Below, piece by piece: positions 10,211 to 17,673 of a stretch of 64,000 bases of DNA. Every line of letters begins with the position of its first letter. Positions within the stretch are counted from its first letter, which is position 1. Position numbers and translations under genes: made by a program. This DNA is from Bartonella kosoyi (lineage in GTDB: Bacteria; Pseudomonadota; Alphaproteobacteria; Rhizobiales; Rhizobiaceae), in assembly GCF_003606325.2 (NCBI RefSeq), contig NZ_CP031843.2:1426001-1490000 (forward strand). Direction: 5' to 3'. The notes below the pieces were generated by a model. That model was not told the origin of the DNA. It worked only from the letters and a program-made list of their open reading frames with translations, and made no database searches.

Positions 10211-10317
10211 AATGCCTCAACTTGATTTGATATCATCTTCAATAATAATCTTAGCTAAAAAGAAGAAAATTTCTTCATTAATCATCTTGATGTTATCGAT
10301 ATTATGGCAGTGTTTAA

Positions 10318-10512: not shown

Positions 10513-12846
10513 ATGGATGTTTCTCTTGTTGTCCGTTTTGTCAATCATCTGCAAGAGGGGATCGCCTCTGCCAAGCGAGACTTAAGAGCCTTTAGCCTCG
10601 ATATTGCGCATTTCCAAAACCAAACACGAAAGCATTTTAAAGGGTGGTTTGACCCTGAGCACTTGAAGGAATCTACAGAAAAAGCGCAAAATGCTTATAT
10701 TCATGCGCGTGGGCGCATGGTGGGGGCGCTTGCTCAAACGGCAACCTTAATTGCCCCTCTCTATAAAGCCATGCAATTTGACCAATCAATGAAGGGCTTG
10801 GAAAAGGTTCTAGATAGCCCCCTTGATCGTTTAAAAGAATTGCGCCGTTTTGCTTTGGAAACCTCTACAAAAATCCCTTTGGCTGCCCGTGAAGTCTTAG
10901 AATTGATGACCAGTGCCAGCCAAGCAGGCATTGGTGAACAAGATCTCGAGGCTTTTAGTATTTATGCTGCCAAGGCAGCGGTCGCCTTTGATATGACGGG
11001 GGATCAAATTGGGGAACGCTTTGCCAAATTGCGCAATGTCTTTAAGCTTAATCAAGCAGGTATTGAAGATCTAGGGGATGCCATCAACCATCTTTCCAAC
11101 CACATGGCAGCCAAGGCGAGTGAGGTGTCTGACTTTACCAATCGTGCCACCGGTGCGGCAACCATGTTTAAACTGACAGCCTGCGAAACAGCAGCCTTTG
11201 GGACGGCGATGATTTCTGCTGGTATTGTCCCAGAGAGTGCAGCACGTGGTTTTAATGCTATGAGTGCGCGTATTCAAGCAGGGGGTAAACATATTGAAGA
11301 TGCTTTTACCAATATTGGTCTCTCTCGCCAAAAATTTATGGAAGATTTGGAGAAAGATGCCACCGGTACCTTGGTGCGTTTTTTTGATGTGTTGGGCAAA
11401 TCCGAACAGGGAATGCGTTCGCTGATTGCCATTGCGGGGCGCGACTTTACCGGTGATTTTGCCAAATTGGTTGGCAATCCCGAATTGCTAGGGCAAGCAT
11501 TAGATTATGTGAAAGACCCAAAAGTCTTTAAAGGCTCTGTCGAACAAGAGGCAGATAAACAAGCAACCGGTGCCATGCGGCAATTTGAACTGTTGCAAAA
11601 CCGCATTGTGGCTTTAGGGGTTACCATTGGTGAGGTTTTGTTGCCCCATGTGAACAGTTTAATGGAAACTGTTGGTGGTTTTTTAAACGTTCTGATGGCA
11701 TGGGCTAATGAACACCCTGTTTTGACCGGTGTGATCATCAAAACCATTGCCGCCCTGATGGCTTTTAACATCGCTTTACGGGTTGTACGTTTTACCATGG
11801 CGGGAACCCGCCTTGGGATCCTGCAATTGATTGCCTCTTTTATCAAGCTTGGATCTATTAGCCGCATGCTGAAGGCAAGTTGGCGCGGGCTCTTGGCTTC
11901 AGGGCGCTCACTGGGCTTGCTCACCGCAGGGTTTGGGGCACGTTTCCTCAAACTTTTGCGCCCCATGACCTTGTTGGTGGGTGCTTTGCGGGGGATTGCT
12001 GTCTCAGGGGCGGCATTTGCGAGGAGCTTTGGTTTGATAGGAACCGTGATCGAAGTGGTTGGGGCAAGCCTGTCCTCTGTTGTGGGGGGGCTTTTTACTC
12101 CGGTAGGGGCTGTGATTGCTGCTGTTGTGGCTATCATATTGGCTGCTGGTTTTGCTTTGTGGAAATATTGGGACCGTGTTTCTTCTTTTATAAAGGGCTT
12201 TGCACGGGGGATAACACGGGCTTTTGGCCAAGCCTTTGAAGCCGTCATGCGTTTTTTTGGGGCTGATACCAGCACCATCACCCGTTGGAAGAATATCATT
12301 GCTGCTGCTTTTGATTTCTCTCAAAATTGGCAAAAGTTTAAACAAGGTCTTGCCTCTGTTGCTCAAATTTGTGAAAGCTTGTGGGAGGGGATTAAACAAA
12401 GCCTTTCCAATTTTTGGCAATGGTTGAAGCGTTTTTTTTCTCAAGAAAAGCTCACGGATAGTGCCAAGGCTGGTATGGAACAAGCCGGGGAAGATTTAGC
12501 GAATTGGATTGTTAATGGTTTTATGTCGTCCATCTCACAATTGACAGATTTTTGTAAATCTTTACCTCACCGCATAAAGGGGTGGATTGGGTCGATTGAT
12601 GTAAGAGATTATTTGCCAAGTTTTTTAGGAGGCAAAACGCCTCAGCCCCTTGTACAATTTGCGGTGGCTGGTCGTGCCAATGTGCCTCTCACAGAAGCAA
12701 AAGACAAAGAACGCGTCCCCATCACGCACCATCAAAATGTCACGGTGCATGTCAATGGCGCGCGTGATCCCATTGCCACTGGTCGTGCGGTTAGTCACGC
12801 CATTCAACGCGCACGCGCCAATGCGCTGCATGGAGGGACCGAATAA
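10513..12846 (+). CDS. Phage tail tape measure protein
   Basis: Sets tail length and is threaded inside the tail tube. The 777 residues show the TP901-type tape measure core at about residues 80-330 (for example LETSTKIPLAAREVLELMTSA and ATGAATMF..ISAGIVPESAARGFNAMSARI). Several hydrophobic segments follow at about 380-560 and a tail region after 600. The C-terminus NVTVHVNGARDP...AIQRARANALHGGTE is partly duplicated in the next short frame. It is part of the P2-like remnant and fully open, so it could still be translated. Function is inferred from family and position. Confidence 0.88.
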   Translation: MDVSLVVRFVNHLQEGIASAKRDLRAFSLDIAHFQNQTRKHFKGWFDPEHLKESTEKAQNAYIHARGRMVGALAQTATLIAPLYKAMQFDQSMKGLEKVLDSPLDRLKELRRFALETSTKIPLAAREVLELMTSASQAGIGEQDLEAFSIYAAKAAVAFDMTGDQIGERFAKLRNVFKLNQAGIEDLGDAINHLSNHMAAKASEVSDFTNRATGAATMFKLTACETAAFGTAMISAGIVPESAARGFNAMSARIQAGGKHIEDAFTNIGLSRQKFMEDLEKDATGTLVRFFDVLGKSEQGMRSLIAIAGRDFTGDFAKLVGNPELLGQALDYVKDPKVFKGSVEQEADKQATGAMRQFELLQNRIVALGVTIGEVLLPHVNSLMETVGGFLNVLMAWANEHPVLTGVIIKTIAALMAFNIALRVVRFTMAGTRLGILQLIASFIKLGSISRMLKASWRGLLASGRSLGLLTAGFGARFLKLLRPMTLLVGALRGIAVSGAAFARSFGLIGTVIEVVGASLSSVVGGLFTPVGAVIAAVVAIILAAGFALWKYWDRVSSFIKGFARGITRAFGQAFEAVMRFFGADTSTITRWKNIIAAAFDFSQNWQKFKQGLASVAQICESLWEGIKQSLSNFWQWLKRFFSQEKLTDSAKAGMEQAGEDLANWIVNGFMSSISQLTDFCKSLPHRIKGWIGSIDVRDYLPSFLGGKTPQPLVQFAVAGRANVPLTEAKDKERVPITHHQNVTVHVNGARDPIATGRAVSHAIQRARANALHGGTE

Positions 12847-12859
12847 TGGCAGGAAGGCA

Positions 12860-13009
12860 ATGAGGGGAGGGACACACAAACTTATGCATCGCACTCAAAA
12901 TGTCACGGTGCATGTCAATGGCGCTCGTGATCCTGTTGCTAATGGTCGAACGGTTACTCACACCATTCAACGGGCACGCGCTAATGCATTGCATGAGGGA
13001 ATAGAATAA
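12860..13009 (+). CDS. Duplicated tape measure C-terminus, 49 aa
   Basis: A short frame starting at ATG 12860 after an AGGAAGG ribosome site. Residues 14-49 (NVTVHVNGARDPVANGR... through RARANALHEGIE) copy the last 36 residues of the tape measure protein just upstream. The two DNA copies (about 12737-12846 and 12900-13009) differ at scattered sites, so the duplication is not recent. It has no obvious function of its own. Translation is possible, because the ribosome site and the TAATG junction to the next gene are intact. Confidence 0.5.
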   Translation: MRGGTHKLMHRTQNVTVHVNGARDPVANGRTVTHTIQRARANALHEGIE

Positions 13010-13020
13010 TGGGAGGGAGC

Positions 13021-13467
13021 ATGCAAGATCCTTTGATGATGTTAGGTCCACATCAATTTTATGTGGACTGGCTTAATTTCCAATCTTTTGAAGAGGAATT
13101 CTCTGCCTCATGGGTTTGCTTAGAGCGTTTTGGCAAGTCGCCTAGTTTGCAATTTACTGGCTATGGCAATGATCCCAAAACCATTCATGGCGTTTGGTTT
13201 CCAGAAGAATTTGGTGATCGTGTAGCCATTGATGCCATCACCACAACGATCAAGAGAGCAAAGCCGGTCCAGATGCTTCGTTGGATCAATGATACCACCT
13301 ATAGTGTCCTTCTCCATGGACCCGTGGTGATCACCAGTATCACGAAAGACCACGACTTTATCAGTCGCTCCGGTCAATCCCAGCGTATCCGCTATTCCAT
13401 CAGTCTCTTACCCTTTTTTAATGGCGGAAAACCGCAAGGACAATATCAGGTGGGGCAAACTTTATGA
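13021..13467 (+). CDS. P2 gpU-like tail protein
   Basis: Tail terminator or tail-end protein of contractile P2-like phages. The start MQDPLMMLGPHQFYVDWLNFQSF and the middle SPSLQFTGYGNDPKTIHGVWFPEEFGD follow the gpU pattern (short LG.FQF start, then LQFTG.GND.I.L.G..YPE). I place the start at ATG 13021 because GGAGGG lies 5-9 bp before it; an in-frame ATG at 13009 overlaps the previous stop. The protein has 148 residues, close to the usual length. gpX overlaps its end by 4 bp. Confidence 0.82.
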   Translation: MQDPLMMLGPHQFYVDWLNFQSFEEEFSASWVCLERFGKSPSLQFTGYGNDPKTIHGVWFPEEFGDRVAIDAITTTIKRAKPVQMLRWINDTTYSVLLHGPVVITSITKDHDFISRSGQSQRIRYSISLLPFFNGGKPQGQYQVGQTL

Positions 13468-13718
13468 AGATACCAGAAAAGCGTGTTGTTGTAGAGCTGG
13501 AGGATATGAGTCTCGATCTCCTCTGCTTTCAACATGCCATGGCTGTGTTAGGGGACCGTTCTCAAGTTGGATTATTAAATGGCTATTGTGAAGCCACATT
13601 GGAAGCCAATCCAGAGATTGCCAAATATGGTCCAATTTTACCGCGAGGCTTAACGGTCATTCTGCCTGAATTTATCCCCCAAGAAAAGAACCGCGTGGTG
13701 AAACGGTTATGGGATTAA
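13464..13718 (+). CDS. P2 gpX-like tail protein (LysM-type)
   Basis: A small 84-residue tail protein in the position of P2 gpX, overlapping gpU by 4 bp and gpD by 10 bp. The pattern DLLCFQHAMAVLGDRSQVGLLNGYCEATLEANPEIAKYGPILPRGLTVILPEF fits the LysM-like fold (written here only as landmarks: LEANPEIAKYGPILPRGLTV). In P2 the protein joins baseplate and tube. The match is to the family pattern and gene order; exact function is inferred. Confidence 0.78.
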   Translation: MKIPEKRVVVELEDMSLDLLCFQHAMAVLGDRSQVGLLNGYCEATLEANPEIAKYGPILPRGLTVILPEFIPQEKNRVVKRLWD

Positions 13719-14719
13719 TGCGCACACACCCTTTTATTGTGGTTAAGGTGGGAGAAAAACCTGTTCATGAAGTTTTTTACCAACGTCTTTTAACGGCAAC
13801 CATCACAGACAATGCGGGTAATGAAGCCGATACATTCGAGGCGGAATTTGATGATAGCGGCAATGATTTAGAGATTCCCTCCAGTAACAGTGCGCTCCAT
13901 GTCACCTTTGGCTATCAGGACAGCATTCGTGCCTTTATGGGGCGTTTTGTTGTGGAGACGGTGATCAGTTGTGGGGGCAGTGATGGAGAGATTTTGCGCC
14001 TTTGTGGCAAAAGTGCCTCGATGTGTGCGGAGATCAAAGAACAGGCGAGTGAACATTTTGACCACAAAACCATTGCTGAGATTGTTGAGACCCTTGCCAA
14101 ACGCCATGGTTATCAAGCAAAGGTCAGTCCACAATTGACCAAACAAACCTTGCCTTATGTGGTGCGCACCGATCAATCGGCGATTGATTTTTTAACTAGG
14201 CTTGCGGATCGCATGCGGGCGCGTTTTTTAATCAAAGACCATAAGTTTTTATTTTTAAGCGGGGACAATCTCCCCCTCCAGACCATTCATCAACATGAGT
14301 GTTCCCATTGGGAATTCACCCTAGAGCCGCGTACGCAATACGGCATCATTGAAGCTTCTTATTTTGATCGCGCAAAAGGGCAACAATGCCAAGTCAAGCA
14401 TCAAACAGGGTTTACTGGCCCCATTCGCCGTCTGCGCAGTTGTTATCCAAGTCAAGAAGAAGCACAAGCGGCGGCTGCTTCCGAGTCGGATCGCTTATGC
14501 CGTGCTGTAGGCAGTGGCTCCTTAACTCTTGCGGGATACCCTGAAATCATGGCGGGTCAACCGCTTCTCCTGCAAGGGTTTCGAGGCGAAATCAATGGTC
14601 CATGGAAGGCTGCTACCGTGACCCATCGCTATGAAAAGCAAAGCGGCTACATCACAGAAATAACCTTTGAGGCACCAGATAAGGGAAACAAAACAGGAGA
14701 AAAGAAAACCTCTGAGTGA
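13709..14719 (+). CDS. P2 gpD-like late control / baseplate hub protein
   Basis: Member of the phage late-control D family, which forms the trimeric hub at the tail tip. The 336 residues include the typical N-terminal strand region (ADTFEAEFDD..NDLEIP, FGYQDSIRAFMGRFVVE), the middle KTIAEIVETLAKRHGYQAKV with TDQSAIDFLTRLADRMRARF, and a C-terminal ITEITFEAP end. It is the last intact gene of the P2-like tail remnant. The name late control is historical and need not mean transcription control here. Confidence 0.85.
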   Translation: MGLMRTHPFIVVKVGEKPVHEVFYQRLLTATITDNAGNEADTFEAEFDDSGNDLEIPSSNSALHVTFGYQDSIRAFMGRFVVETVISCGGSDGEILRLCGKSASMCAEIKEQASEHFDHKTIAEIVETLAKRHGYQAKVSPQLTKQTLPYVVRTDQSAIDFLTRLADRMRARFLIKDHKFLFLSGDNLPLQTIHQHECSHWEFTLEPRTQYGIIEASYFDRAKGQQCQVKHQTGFTGPIRRLRSCYPSQEEAQAAAASESDRLCRAVGSGSLTLAGYPEIMAGQPLLLQGFRGEINGPWKAATVTHRYEKQSGYITEITFEAPDKGNKTGEKKTSE

Positions 14720-15451
14720 CAGAAAATCAAAGGGTAATGTTTACCCTGTGATCGGTGATGATGAACATTTAGAGCAATTGGTGCAATTTGCACCAATTGC
14801 TAAAAGGAGCAATAGTGCAAACATTGCACAATTGCATGATGAAGAAAAATTGGGTCAAGTTGATCCTATTTTTGAAATATTCAGATCACAATGAAATTTT
14901 ATGTGAAGGAAATGGAAGATCAAAAGTGCAACCTGCTCCTTTGATCAGTTGTAATGCTTTCTGAGATCAACGTGCAATGTTTGCACTTTGGGTGGGAGAG
15001 AGCAATGGGGACAACTTGTCCCTATTCCTTAAAGGTACAATAGGATCAAGTTGATCCAATTGCATGAGTTCAGCAATAGGGTAATGTTTACCCAATTCCT
15101 CAAACGCTTCTCTTTATAATAATGTACTTGAATAATATACTTGGGATACGGAAAAACGATCAGTCAATTTATGCTAAAAGAAGTCATATCCTTTTATGTA
15201 TGTTGCTTCTCAAATAATGCGATTCCTGTCATACGATTCCAGCTCAATGATTGATCATCAAAAATTGCGGTCTTTAAGAGAGAAAAATAAAGACTCATTA
15301 AAGAGGCTCTAAATGATCTTTGAAAGGTCTTTGAAGACCCTTTGAAAACACCTTAAAAACCCTTAAAAGAAAATAAATTGGTACAAAACCTGGTGGCAAA
15401 ATATACAAAACCTGCTGGCAAGCTACAGCTGGCAAGCTACAACAAGCTACA
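14720..15451. other. Degenerate stretch with palindromes and decayed frames
   Basis: About 730 bp between gpD and attL. A 75-codon frame (14667-14894) and short frames after it carry fragments such as GNVYPV, LGQVDPIF, SNGDNLSLFLK and SNRVMFTQFLK, which look like variants of one peptide repeat broken by stops. At least seven 15-bp palindromes lie between 14732 and 15093. Further right are two direct copies of ACAAAACCTG(G/C)TGGCAA (about 15384 and 15408) and repeats of CAAGCTAC. I read it as remnants of a repeat-bearing phage gene; no intact gene is supported. Confidence 0.5.
14732..15093. repeat. Family of 15-bp palindromes with varying arms
   Basis: Seven dyads of the same size: 14732-14746 (GGGTAA-TGT-TTACCC), 14815-14829 (GTGCAA-ACA-TTGCAC), 14972-14986 (GTGCAA-TGT-TTGCAC), 15008-15022 (GGGACAA-C-TTGTCCC), 15043-15057 (GGATCAA-G-TTGATCC), 15079-15093 (GGGTAA-TGT-TTACCC), and a longer one at 14775-14799 with 12-bp arms around one base. 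An imperfect one is at 14852-14866. All share the inner AA...TT; the outer 4 bases change but stay complementary. Flanks AGCAAT on the left and ATTCCT on the right recur. Confidence 0.8.
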
Positions 15452-15716: not shown

Positions 15717-15728
15717 CAAGGGGTGCTA

Positions 15729-16010
15729 ATGGCAATTGTGAGTTTCAAACATAAGGGCTTAAAATTATTTTATACAACAGGTTCCACAAAAGCTATTCGA
15801 CCAGATCACGTAAAGAAATTACGCGTTATCTTAACGGCTTTAACAAGTGCTACGACACCCGATATGTTGCGAGCACCTGCCTTTAAAATGCATCCTCTTA
15901 AAGGTGAACTTACAGGATATTATTCTATATGGGTGAATGGAAATTGGCGTGTTACTTTTCGCTTTATAGGAACAGATGTGGAGCTTGTTGATTATCAAGA
16001 TTACCATTGA
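15729..16010 (+). CDS. higB: HigB-type toxin (RelE fold)
   Basis: Toxin of a type II module; HigB proteins cut mRNA on the ribosome. The 93 residues follow the family closely: SFKHKGLKLFYTTGST near the start, KLRVILTAL, FKMHPLKGELTGYYSIWVNGNWRVTF (landmark HPLKGEL), and the end DYQDYH. An AAGGGG ribosome site 5 bp before ATG 15729 favours that start over GTG 15723. It is followed by its antitoxin after 18 bp, toxin first, as is typical for HigBA. The pair lies just inside attL, where it could stabilise the prophage. Confidence 0.9.
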   Translation: MAIVSFKHKGLKLFYTTGSTKAIRPDHVKKLRVILTALTSATTPDMLRAPAFKMHPLKGELTGYYSIWVNGNWRVTFRFIGTDVELVDYQDYH

Positions 16011-16028
16011 TGAAAGGAACGAAAACAA

Positions 16029-16328
16029 ATGATGCATAACCCCGCACATCCGGGCGAAGTTCTAAAAGTAGCTTTCTTAGAAGAAATGGGGATAACGATA
16101 CAAAAGTTAGCGGATCATCTCCATATGACAAGAGCTTCTCTATCAAGAGTGATTAACGGTCATGCTTCTATGAGTACCGAACTTGCAATTAAATTAGAAT
16201 TAGCTGGTTTTAGTAAAGCAAAATTTTGGTTGGATATGCAAACAAACTATAATTTATGGCAAACAATGCAACAGACACAACCACCTATTTCTCCTCTGGT
16301 TTCTGATGTACCTCAAACGCAGCTTTGA
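16029..16328 (+). CDS. higA: HigA-type antitoxin (XRE helix-turn-helix)
   Basis: Neutralises HigB and represses the operon. The 99 residues open with HNPAHPGEVLKVAFLEEMGITIQKLADHL, of which HPGEVL is the HigA hallmark, and have a helix-turn-helix at about residues 24-45 (KLADHLHMTRASLSRVINGH). The C-terminus is a flexible tail. ATG 16029 is followed by a second ATG at 16032; either may be used. It converges with the integrase gene. Confidence 0.9.
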   Translation: MMHNPAHPGEVLKVAFLEEMGITIQKLADHLHMTRASLSRVINGHASMSTELAIKLELAGFSKAKFWLDMQTNYNLWQTMQQTQPPISPLVSDVPQTQL

Positions 16329-16384: not shown

Positions 16385-17422
16385 CTAACCTTTTTGAAGT
16401 TTTTTTATGGCTTCTATTGCAAGGCGTTTTCTATCGGCTGTTTTAGTATAAAGGGATGCCATTTTATCTTCTGACCAGCCAAAAAGCGCTTTCATTTGCG
16501 AAACTGTAGCACCAGCATTGGCGGCGCGTGTTGCTGCTAATTTTCGCAAGCCGTGTGCCGATTTTTTAATCCCTGCTGCATTACATGCTTCACGAAACAG
16601 ATTACCAAAACTTTCTTTTACGAGCTTATTTCCACCTTTTCCGCAAATGAATGTTTCATCACCTACGGGACCAACTTTAAGAGTTTCTGCGAGTTCTGGT
16701 AAAATAGGGAGAAAAACATCTGTTTTAAATTGGCTCTTTTCTGTTTTGAGATGAATGATATTATCTTTTACATCTTTCCAACCGATACGAACGGCATCTC
16801 CACGGCGCAAGCCCGTATAAAGAAGCACATCAACCCATACGCGTTCATGGGTACCAATAGCCCATTGTTTATAATATTTATCGATATCCTCTTCTAACCA
16901 TGGCGCTAATCCTTCGCTGTTAAGAGATTTTGGTGCTTTTACATTAAAAGCAGGATTTCTGTTTAAAAGGGCATTATCAACTGCCCAATTAAAGAGACCG
17001 TTTAAAGAAGTCAAAAAATGTTTTGCTGCTGCGGGAGTCTCACGTCTTCTTTCTACGGCATCAAGAATATGATGTTTTCCTATGCTTTTATATGCGCGTT
17101 CACCGATATGTTTAGAAACATTGTTCAGAATTCTATACTTAACTTTTTTAGTAGATTCTGATTGATTATGCCATTGCATGCTTTGTAAATATTGATGCAA
17201 CAACCAATCGAAAGAGCCCTCTACAAGTCTGGTTTGTTTTCTTTTCTTGGAGGTGCCATTTTGCGCTTGCTTAAGAGCAAGCGTATAATTATCGACAAAC
17301 TCTTGCGTTCCATAGGTTCCTTCAATCCGAAATCGTGGTCCATGACCAATACGTACATACCATATGATTTTACCATGGCGTGTGCGTTCACAAACAAGAT
17401 ATGGTGGACGACGTTTTGGCAT
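16385..17422 (-). CDS. int: Prophage integrase (tyrosine recombinase)
   Basis: Catalyses recombination between attP and attB. Counting from the preferred start at 17422 (345 residues), the catalytic residues are Arg206 (TGLRRGD), His290 and Arg293 (AHGLRKLAA) and Tyr325 (LYTKTA). Position 316, usually histidine, is tryptophan (FGWSEDK), a common variant. The N-terminal 90 residues hold the arm-binding domain, and a SAM-like core-binding domain follows. A longer frame begins at 17455, but the conserved start is MPKRRPPYLV. It lies beside attL, as expected, and the tRNA-Ser repeats are its likely target. Confidence 0.93.
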   Translation of the reverse strand: MPKRRPPYLVCERTRHGKIIWYVRIGHGPRFRIEGTYGTQEFVDNYTLALKQAQNGTSKKRKQTRLVEGSFDWLLHQYLQSMQWHNQSESTKKVKYRILNNVSKHIGERAYKSIGKHHILDAVERRRETPAAAKHFLTSLNGLFNWAVDNALLNRNPAFNVKAPKSLNSEGLAPWLEEDIDKYYKQWAIGTHERVWVDVLLYTGLRRGDAVRIGWKDVKDNIIHLKTEKSQFKTDVFLPILPELAETLKVGPVGDETFICGKGGNKLVKESFGNLFREACNAAGIKKSAHGLRKLAATRAANAGATVSQMKALFGWSEDKMASLYTKTADRKRLAIEAIKKLQKG

Positions 17423-17424
17423 GG

Positions 17425-17673
17425 CTAAAACTTTATACCGTCGACAGAACGACAAGTTTTGCTGGTATCGTAGTCTTCTTGTTCATTTTCAAGCGGTGGA
17501 AAATCGTCAATGCTATAAGTATTATCTGCCGTTTTGGGTGTTGCGATTTTATTGATATGAATTAATAATTCACCAGTAGGCTTGATTTCTACAACCTCTG
17601 CTCCTTGCTTTTTAGCTTCTCTTAAAGCCCGCGCAATGGCTGGTTGCGTGATAGTAGGTGGGCGGTGTGCCAT
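17425..17673 (-). CDS. Small protein upstream of integrase
   Basis: An 82-residue protein whose stop lies next to the integrase start. The first half, with TQPAIARALREAKKQGAEVVEIKPTGEL (landmarks QPAIARALREAKKQG and VEIKPTGELLI), resembles short hypothetical proteins often found beside integrases in rhizobial prophages. It has no helix-turn-helix that I can recognise. A role as excisionase or integrase partner is possible from position only. An ATTCAC-N7-GTGAAT dyad lies 27 bp before its start, the same element as ahead of the ERF gene. Confidence 0.65.
   Translation of the reverse strand: MAHRPPTITQPAIARALREAKKQGAEVVEIKPTGELLIHINKIATPKTADNTYSIDDFPPLENEQEDYDTSKTCRSVDGIKF

Follow-up and report, generated by a model that had tools for sequence, protein, structure and literature searches.

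Palindromes in genes for phage ParB-like proteins as candidate parS-like sites: an array in Bartonella kosoyi and its relatives

The chromosomal ParB-parS and Noc-NBS (Noc-binding site) systems each pair a protein with a palindromic DNA site that is read by its helix-turn-helix (HTH) domain. One of the parS sites of Bacillus subtilis is located in spo0J. A putative parS has also been described within the parA gene of Mycobacterium bovis BCG (PMC2346475). In Caulobacter ParB, residues R173 and N178 contact parS, and positions 173, 179, 184 and 201 switch specificity (PMC7383237). ParB-palindrome pairs and single intragenic sites are known. Here we analyse an array of eight 15-base-pair (bp) palindromes, or dyads, in a stretch of 64,000 nucleotides of Bartonella kosoyi (positions 1,426,001 to 1,490,000 of contig NZ_CP031843.2, hereafter the window), together with dyads of the same and of other sequence that lie in genes for a phage ParB-like protein (ParB_N plus HTH; phrog_3264). 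Judged from sequence, these palindromes are very probably parS-like recognition sites of that protein, site and helix having co-evolved, and we consider it highly likely that each such protein binds the dyad of its own gene.

The phage proteins share with chromosomal ParB and Noc a ParB_N domain with box II and III residues and an HTH that would read a palindrome, and the register of the recognition helix is weakly alignable between them. A site within the coding region of its own gene has been described for the controller protein C.Kpn2I, where it acts as an elongation roadblock, and in the authors' view such regulation may be common in C.Kpn2I-like proteins (PMC6237814). The dyads of the ParB-like genes are likewise candidate sites inside the coding sequence of the protein predicted to bind them; C.Kpn2I, however, belongs to another protein family, and the passages of that report on the site mention neither an interdomain-linker site nor an array (PMC6237814). 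RepB with the parS of repABC plasmids and KorB with the RK2 operators are further examples of a ParB-family protein paired with a palindromic site on mobile elements; the phage proteins match RepB models weakly, and the KorB fold matches. In the account that we draw on, the repABC parS lies in the operon and mostly in intergenic DNA (PMC9040568), as opposed to the linker codons of its own binding protein. Chromosomal parS differs in that it lies elsewhere near its gene, with no palindrome in the linker (0 of 11), whereas the phage-type site lies in the codons of the linker between ParB_N and HTH and differs between phages. Palindromic DNA that is also coding is known from the Rickettsia palindromic elements, and PARCELs share this property with the present dyads. 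PARCELs differ in encoding a 25-residue tandem protein repeat (PMC2996958), which is not known to be linked to a binding protein of the same gene. For Mu-like phages, it has been proposed that ParB and transposases might function in integration (PMC5488378). We found no prior report of a family-wide own site in linker codons with a readable code in the open-access literature; subscription journals lay outside that search.

Palindromes in the linker codons of parB-like genes

Matches to the array region of the window occur in at least 30 of 61 Bartonella genomes (its own included), often with the pieces reordered, and several of them lie inside an intact gene encoding the ParB-like protein (PF02195; phrog_3264). 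Across 37 distinct arrays of the genus, in-frame and shuffled modules stand between a ParB_N domain ending in KKYGEI..GGD and the HTH FAKHVADRIGLS, and most modules carry a 15-bp palindromic core. Intact genes with such repeats, whose existence in related prophages the original prediction had raised, are found in these parB arrays. A tight dyad pattern was matched in 9 of 14 genomes. Twenty contexts outside parB were fetched, about half of which show the phage tail gene gpD and the remainder no clear host gene; no copy of a module in an open frame was met outside parB, in a survey that included no gene-by-gene scan of whole genomes. At three loci (L131, L133 and L136), arrays or pairs of dyads occur with neither a gpD nor a parB frame recognisable in the vicinity.

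The arms of the dyads had been predicted to vary while staying complementary, and this is borne out across the genus. Among cores extracted by their flanks alone and counted on both strands, complementarity extends over all six outer pairs in 68 of 93, 89 of 130 and 25 of 52, against shuffled-arm means of 14, 16 and 7, and all four Watson-Crick pairs are seen at one pair position. The glycine codon GGT is paired with GAy (Asp) three codons on in 43 cases and GGA (Gly) with GTy (Val) in 34, with two exceptions (77 of 79 agree, counted over all flank-anchored sites on both strands, coding or not). Since the silent base of a glycine codon is here coupled to a distant amino acid, the constraint is one of pairing and not of the protein.

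The cores of an array are also associated with the HTH of its gene. By their HTH, the 37 arrays divide into classes that differ at the residues of the code described below. The core expected for the HTH class is present in all eight KESVKL genes (GGGTAAA), 11 of 12 QDVVKR genes (GGTGCAA), 8 of 10 [STP]KSV[RK]R genes (GGGACAA) and both [EQ]VSVKR genes (GGATCAA), in a table that omits cores starting with C (CGGTCAA, the FGQVDRI module). The observed association was reached by 2 of 10,000 label permutations.

All 5 Bartonella proteins tested and 5 of 7 divergent proteins score above the cut-off of PF02195 (ParB_N), the other two (L114 and L118) falling below it. Residues G59, H61, R62, E94, N95 and R98 are invariant in 14 sequences and belong to the motifs G-x-[HR]-R and E-N-x-x-R, which we take to be boxes II and III for binding of cytidine triphosphate (CTP). 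The structure model of the L227 protein has its best solved match in Noc (7nfu, E 7e-10), followed by ParB 6t1f and KorB 8qa8 (E 2e-7); its template-modelling (TM) scores against solved folds are modest, at about 0.3-0.5. In this model, the codons of the dyad correspond to residues 130-141, which lie within the sole internal stretch with a predicted local distance difference test (pLDDT) score below 50 (129-147), and the residues of the code described below stand at the start of the recognition helix (167-179).

Beyond the genus, a sample of 199 genomes from the order contained 14 with a match at E<=1e-15, and 13 of these 14 belong to other families. A long dyad of other sequence, with an arm of at least 9, occupies the same place in the gene in 7 of 14 homologues from the order and genus (including the divergent genus copy L101), an example being AAAACTCCGACAAGTTGTCGGAGTTTT in L107. 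Linker arms of 11-14 occur in the Sinorhizobium phages StopSmel and Aussie, in RcapMu, in a Pannonibacter plasmid and in a faecal phage. The whole genomes of RcapMu, StopSmel and Aussie hold one site each at up to three mismatches, and in each case it lies inside the own gene.

A larger sample, assembled without picking individual loci, comprised the best 80 each of 136, 176 and 203 loci from three scans, two over viral and one over genome contigs; these scans used the narrower alignments A2 and A3, A1 being too diverse. The 240 loci yielded 232 genes with boxes II and III, of which 220 were distinct after identical genes had been dropped. No relative was found when viral contigs were searched with a single protein, L107 or L112. 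A perfect arm of at least 9 centred 30-60 residues past box III is present in 77 of the 220 genes, against 0-7 in ten synonymous-codon shuffles, and one of at least 7 in 122 genes, against 10-24. Arms of at least 9 number 0-2 in six other 30-residue segments of the same genes, and 85 of the 92 found anywhere in the 232 genes fall 20-75 residues after box III.

Chromosomal ParB provided a control, as it made up most of a search with the phrog_3264 class (271 of 289 genomes; 15 of 30 loci readable by motif). No linker arm of at least 7 was found in the 11 ParB genes of chromosomal type (arms 3-6; type judged by eye from the HTH), and where parS was found at no more than one mismatch (14 of 29 control loci), it never lay within the matched parB stretch. 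The search also gave four phage-like hits, with arms of 6 (L142), 11 (L143), 8 (L145) and 8 (L165).

In 7 of 9 phage records the homologue has an annotated transposase as its neighbour, and in B. kosoyi a Mu-type transposase (PF02914, PF09039, PF09299) lies downstream of the parB-like gene with one small gene between (L054). Linker dyads are also present in a ParB_N-MT-A70 fusion (L328:1405-2676; arm 12; ParB_N below cut-off), in a ParB_N-N6_N4_Mtase fusion (L330:1495-2775; arm 14) and in L403, L404 and L406, where the neighbours tested are not Mu genes. Because of these methyltransferase fusions and non-Mu loci, the candidate self-site is not tied to transposition.

Correspondence between dyad bases and recognition-helix residues

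The code table was built on the 102 odd-centred of the 122 dyads, the 20 even-centred ones entering the test below 40% identity. The 102 have a shape of roughly [CA]A[AT]nn[CG]GnCAAnTTGnC[CG]nn[AT]T[TG], and positions ±9, 10 and 11, which lie outside the selection, are complementary in 91, 89 and 97% of them. Their centres fall in all three codon phases (59, 29 and 14). In these features the dyad looks like a protein-binding site, and neither like an RNA stem nor like a peptide motif.

Similarity of the inner half-sites tracks similarity of the HTH, taken as the first 25 alignment columns after the linker (beta 0.74, reached by none of 1000 permutations), and of the single links tested, the strongest (1.22 bits) is that between base -6 and a residue in the recognition helix. 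At residue 272, K goes with G at base -6 in 21 of 21 dyads, Q with C in 29 of 31, E with C in 16 of 17, R with G in 14 of 15 and F with T in 10 of 10. At residue 273, R goes with C at base -3 in 71 of 74, while L, K, Y, Q, M, H, N and D go with A in 26 of 27 and a single E with C. Residue 269 is R with G at base -5 in 71 of 72.

Rules taken from 84 viral genes predict 32 of 36 bases at -6 and 31 of 32 at -3 in 41 other genes, where genes without an applicable rule are excluded from the counts and one near-copy of a training gene (L173, 99%) is included; the maxima for shuffled helices are 24 and 26 of 41. In the 23 held-out genes whose proteins share less than 50% identity with every training protein, the rules are right for 15 of 19 and 14 of 15 bases. 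When each 40% identity cluster is reduced to one representative (19 in all), base -6 follows residue 272 as R to G in 6 of 6, E to C in 3 of 3 and Q to C in 4 of 5, and base -3 is C with R in 11 of 11 and A with other residues in 7 of 8. In all, 28 of the 220 genes had no helix found by regular expression, and a few helices are mis-assigned (L345, L409 and L180). A dyad predicted from the gene's own helix is present in the linker of 29 of 51 genes that have no perfect arm of at least 7, against a mean of 8.4 and a maximum of 13 for foreign predictions.

By an alignment to Noc 7ng0 (second domain, not significant alone), residues 268 and 273 may correspond to 173 and 178 of Caulobacter ParB, which contact DNA (PMC7383237). 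Among the roles that the original prediction had offered, that of recognition sites for a diversified binding protein is strongly supported by this covariation of dyad bases with residues of the ParB-like HTH.

The Bartonella kosoyi array and its prophage setting

The array of the window (14732-15093) comprises eight 15-bp dyads of the form G(4)A(3)T(4)C within 362 bp and a degenerate ninth element:

14732..14746: dyad 1, GGGTAATGTTTACCC; flank ATCAAA; base -6 G, base -3 A; GGGTAAA class of HTH KESVKL, except base -1
14773..14801: dyad 2, a 29-bp palindrome with core GGTGCAATTTGCACC at 14780-14794; site class of HTH QDVVKR
14815..14829: dyad 3, GTGCAAACATTGCAC; base -6 T, base -3 A
14852..14866: dyad 4, GGGTCAAGTTGATCC; one arm mismatch
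14918..14946: degenerate ninth element, GATCAAA..TTTGATC around a mismatched core
14972..14986: dyad 5, GTGCAATGTTTGCAC; base -6 T, base -3 A
15008..15022: dyad 6, GGGACAACTTGTCCC; site class of HTH [STP]KSV[RK]R
15043..15057: dyad 7, GGATCAAGTTGATCC; site class of HTH [EQ]VSVKR
15079..15093: dyad 8, GGGTAATGTTTACCC; classed like dyad 1

The prediction of at least seven dyads of equal size is thus confirmed. All six outer pairs are complete in seven of the eight, the dyad at 14852 having one mismatch, and a strict scan of the 64 kb (six outer pairs complementary, G..A..T..C fixed) gave eight matches, seven in the array and an AT-rich one at 10262, against 0-2 in each of 20 Markov-1 resamples of the window. 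A looser scan gave 25 matches, 8 of them in the array. The centres consist of one base (CAA-N-TTG) or of three unpaired bases (TGT/ACA). The common flanks AGCAAT and ATTCCT that had been proposed did not hold, as AGCAAT precedes only four dyads and ATTCCT follows only two; the flanks are mainly of two types, ATCAAA..TTTGAT or GGCAAA..TTTGCC on the one hand and GCAATN..NATTGC on the other. A broken core resembling that of the ninth element, GGTGCAACCTGCTCC, is found in 7 of 52 type-A1 genus cores (counted by strand) as a fixed non-palindromic derivative.

The cores represent the sites of four HTH classes (GGGTAA twice, GGTGCAA, GGGACAA and GGATCAA), to which two GTGCAA cores outside the assigned classes and one GGGTCAA are added. 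The first and last dyads match, except at base -1, the site of the KESVKL helix in L004, which is the only ParB-like match in the B. kosoyi genome. No single open frame is common to all eight dyads, the first four only lying in a 75-residue frame. The first half of the array can be read as a module string of parB type, RKSKGNVYPVIG..EQLVQFAPIA..SANIAQLHDEEKLGQVDPI, and for this reason several frames had resembled one peptide motif. The shared motif stands for the parB arrays, whose peptide frame is G-[QN]-V-[DY]-P-[IV]; GDNLSLF belongs to another frame.

The array lies 3' of gpD near the right edge of a block of tail genes:

13709..14719, + strand: phage tail gene gpD (PF05954; phrog_52 tail protein), at the end of which the array begins
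10513..13718, + strand: tail tape-measure gene (PF10145), gpU (PF06995) and gpX (PF05489), one tail block with gpD
15382..15451: short direct repeats TACAAAACCTG.TGGCAA and GCTGGCAAGCTACA (15382-15441), close to the last bases (15427, 15451) that the block has in common with its two other copies in the genome

The array is present three times in the B. kosoyi genome (2.28 Mb), and the tail block ceases to be homologous to its two other copies at 15427 and 15451. The short direct repeats probably mark the right edge of a prophage remnant and could be transposase-binding end repeats. A pair of genes for a HigB-like toxin (PF05015) and an HTH antitoxin follows directly after the remnant (window 15723-16328), and an integrase gene lies after this pair on the minus strand (16385-17455). 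The 601-bp array region has no nucleotide match among 50,697 phage records. Several near-identical Mu-like prophages or tail blocks occur per Bartonella genome (e.g. G036 and G062).

Alternative readings, function and significance

Several observations weigh against reading the dyads as sites of the ParB-like protein. Bartonella arrays are mixed, with GGGTAAA also in 8 of 12 QDVVKR genes and GGTGCAA also in 4 of 8 KESVKL genes, and the expected core is absent from 1 of 12 QDVVKR and 2 of 10 [STP]KSV[RK]R genes; a mix of cognate and foreign-class cores is expected if HTH and site cassettes are exchanged by recombination. Of the homologues, 7 of the 14 from the order and genus have no arm of at least 9, 7 of 12 from phage and plasmid records no linker arm of at least 8, and 98 of the 220 genes no perfect linker arm of at least 7. 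The protein segment before the linker has a weak effect on half-site similarity (N_b, p 0.013; none from four others), and base -7, with the second-highest score, is linked to many pre-linker columns, which we take as shared descent. Physical linkage and shared descent both contribute to the association of dyad and protein. Residue 269 was dropped as a predictor of base -5, with 34 of 39 held-out bases correct against 35 of 41 for the majority base (G). No ParA is annotated within 1.5 kb of the homologue in 11 annotated phage and plasmid stretches. At one exceptional locus (L403:736-3681), a dyad-bearing ParB-like gene lies beside genes for an ATPase of ParA type (PF13614) and for another ParB (PF02195; PF17762 below cut-off).

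The position of the dyads at a domain boundary, their long perfect arms and their variable sequence would also suit a coding RNA hairpin that pauses ribosomes, for which any pairing sequence would serve. This we hold to be very improbable, as the central bases that would be unpairable in an RNA loop are conserved (AA-N-TT, with the pair ±1 complementary in 75% of dyads), mismatches at ±9, 10 and 11 of the 102 dyads are G-T in 1, 0 and 0 and A-C in 3, 5 and 1 and so do not favour G-T, and RNA pairing leaves the residue-base code with the HTH unexplained; the RNA hairpins of the original prediction are not supported. A mobile palindromic element of Rickettsia type, inserted in frame and kept palindromic by hairpin-templated correction, would account for the in-frame arrays, the shuffled modules, the two gene contexts and the Bartonella loci with no recognisable gpD or parB frame. 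Copying does not predict the agreement with HTH residues, open-frame copies were met only in parB, and outside the genus the dyad is a single copy at one homologous place, with one copy in each of the three whole phage genomes, so that we give such an element very little credence. A simple repeat was likewise considered and rejected. The part of the earlier mobile-element proposal that survives is that modules have clearly moved by recombination; self-mobility is not needed, on a test of mobility that was limited. It is similarly improbable that another phage regulator (Ner, c repressor, a small HTH protein or the neighbouring transposase) reads the dyad, with linkage as the cause of its match with the ParB HTH. 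The site does lie in the early operon beside such genes, and the codons of dyad and HTH are only about 20-30 residues apart, but the strongest links are with individual residues of the recognition helix and persist below 40% identity, and dyads also occur in the ParB-methyltransferase fusions and at loci with no Mu transposase among the neighbours tested.

If the dyad is the site of the ParB-like protein, its role could lie not in autoregulation but in pairing the ends of Mu-like phage DNA or in marking that DNA (immunity, packaging, centromere), a possibility that we rate as appreciable, though below even. In G036, about 2.5 kb separate the parB array from the left end, and 0.6-0.7 kb the gpD array from the right end, of the homology between prophage copies; these limits presumably are the prophage ends, with parB and gpD 33 kb apart in one prophage, and in G049 the two genes are 32 kb apart. 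Against this, RcapMu, StopSmel and Aussie have a single site, the gpD of G049 has no array (only a 35-bp gpD match among the matches listed, and tight-pattern matches at parB loci only), and the methyltransferase fusions have no phage ends to pair.

Autoregulation or ParB nucleation is the likeliest use of the site. A dimer of the ParB-like protein would bind the dyad via its HTH, and in intact genes the site would be embedded in the codons of the flexible linker between ParB_N and HTH. With the site kept in the linker, it always travels with the helix reading it. Nucleation of ParB type at the dyad, as a CTP-dependent clamp, would block or tune transcription of the own operon and/or mark phage DNA, and in Mu-like phages the transposase behind the ParB-like gene would belong to the affected operon. 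By analogy with C.Kpn2I, the protein, once bound and perhaps loaded with CTP, would slow transcription as it passes through the gene into the operon downstream; on this proposition we are evenly divided. The linker peptide over the dyad looks like a tolerated linker, given the low model confidence and the use of all three codon phases; the predicted double role in DNA and protein therefore holds for the parB copies to the extent that their dyads are coding, its protein side being of this tolerated kind. In Bartonella, recombination has probably expanded the single site into arrays that mostly hold the cognate site together with sites of other HTH classes. The window carries one of these arrays, located 3' of gpD and not within parB, where a truncated prophage ends with its tail genes; the array does not code there and comprises candidate sites of four HTH classes. 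More speculatively, and with rather little confidence, single-gene self-addressed systems, in which the codons of the interdomain linker serve also as the operator of the protein and in which protein and site are inherited and exchanged as one cassette, may be widespread (Mu-like phages, other elements, ParB-methyltransferase fusions); such cassettes may have accumulated in Bartonella, where the tail-end array, as in the window, may act as a bait or mark of several specificities for the ParB of competing Mu-like phages.

How HTH proteins of the ParB family gain new DNA specificities is an open question for which few pairs have been available so far (ParB and Noc, PMC7383237). Here, protein and candidate site stand side by side in one gene, and two simple sequence rules predict two bases of the site in genes from which the rules were not derived. 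The dyad in the own gene suggests what the ParB-like proteins of Mu-like phages may do. Nor does a conserved palindrome in coding DNA have to be an RNA hairpin or a mobile repeat, since it can be a candidate site for protein binding.
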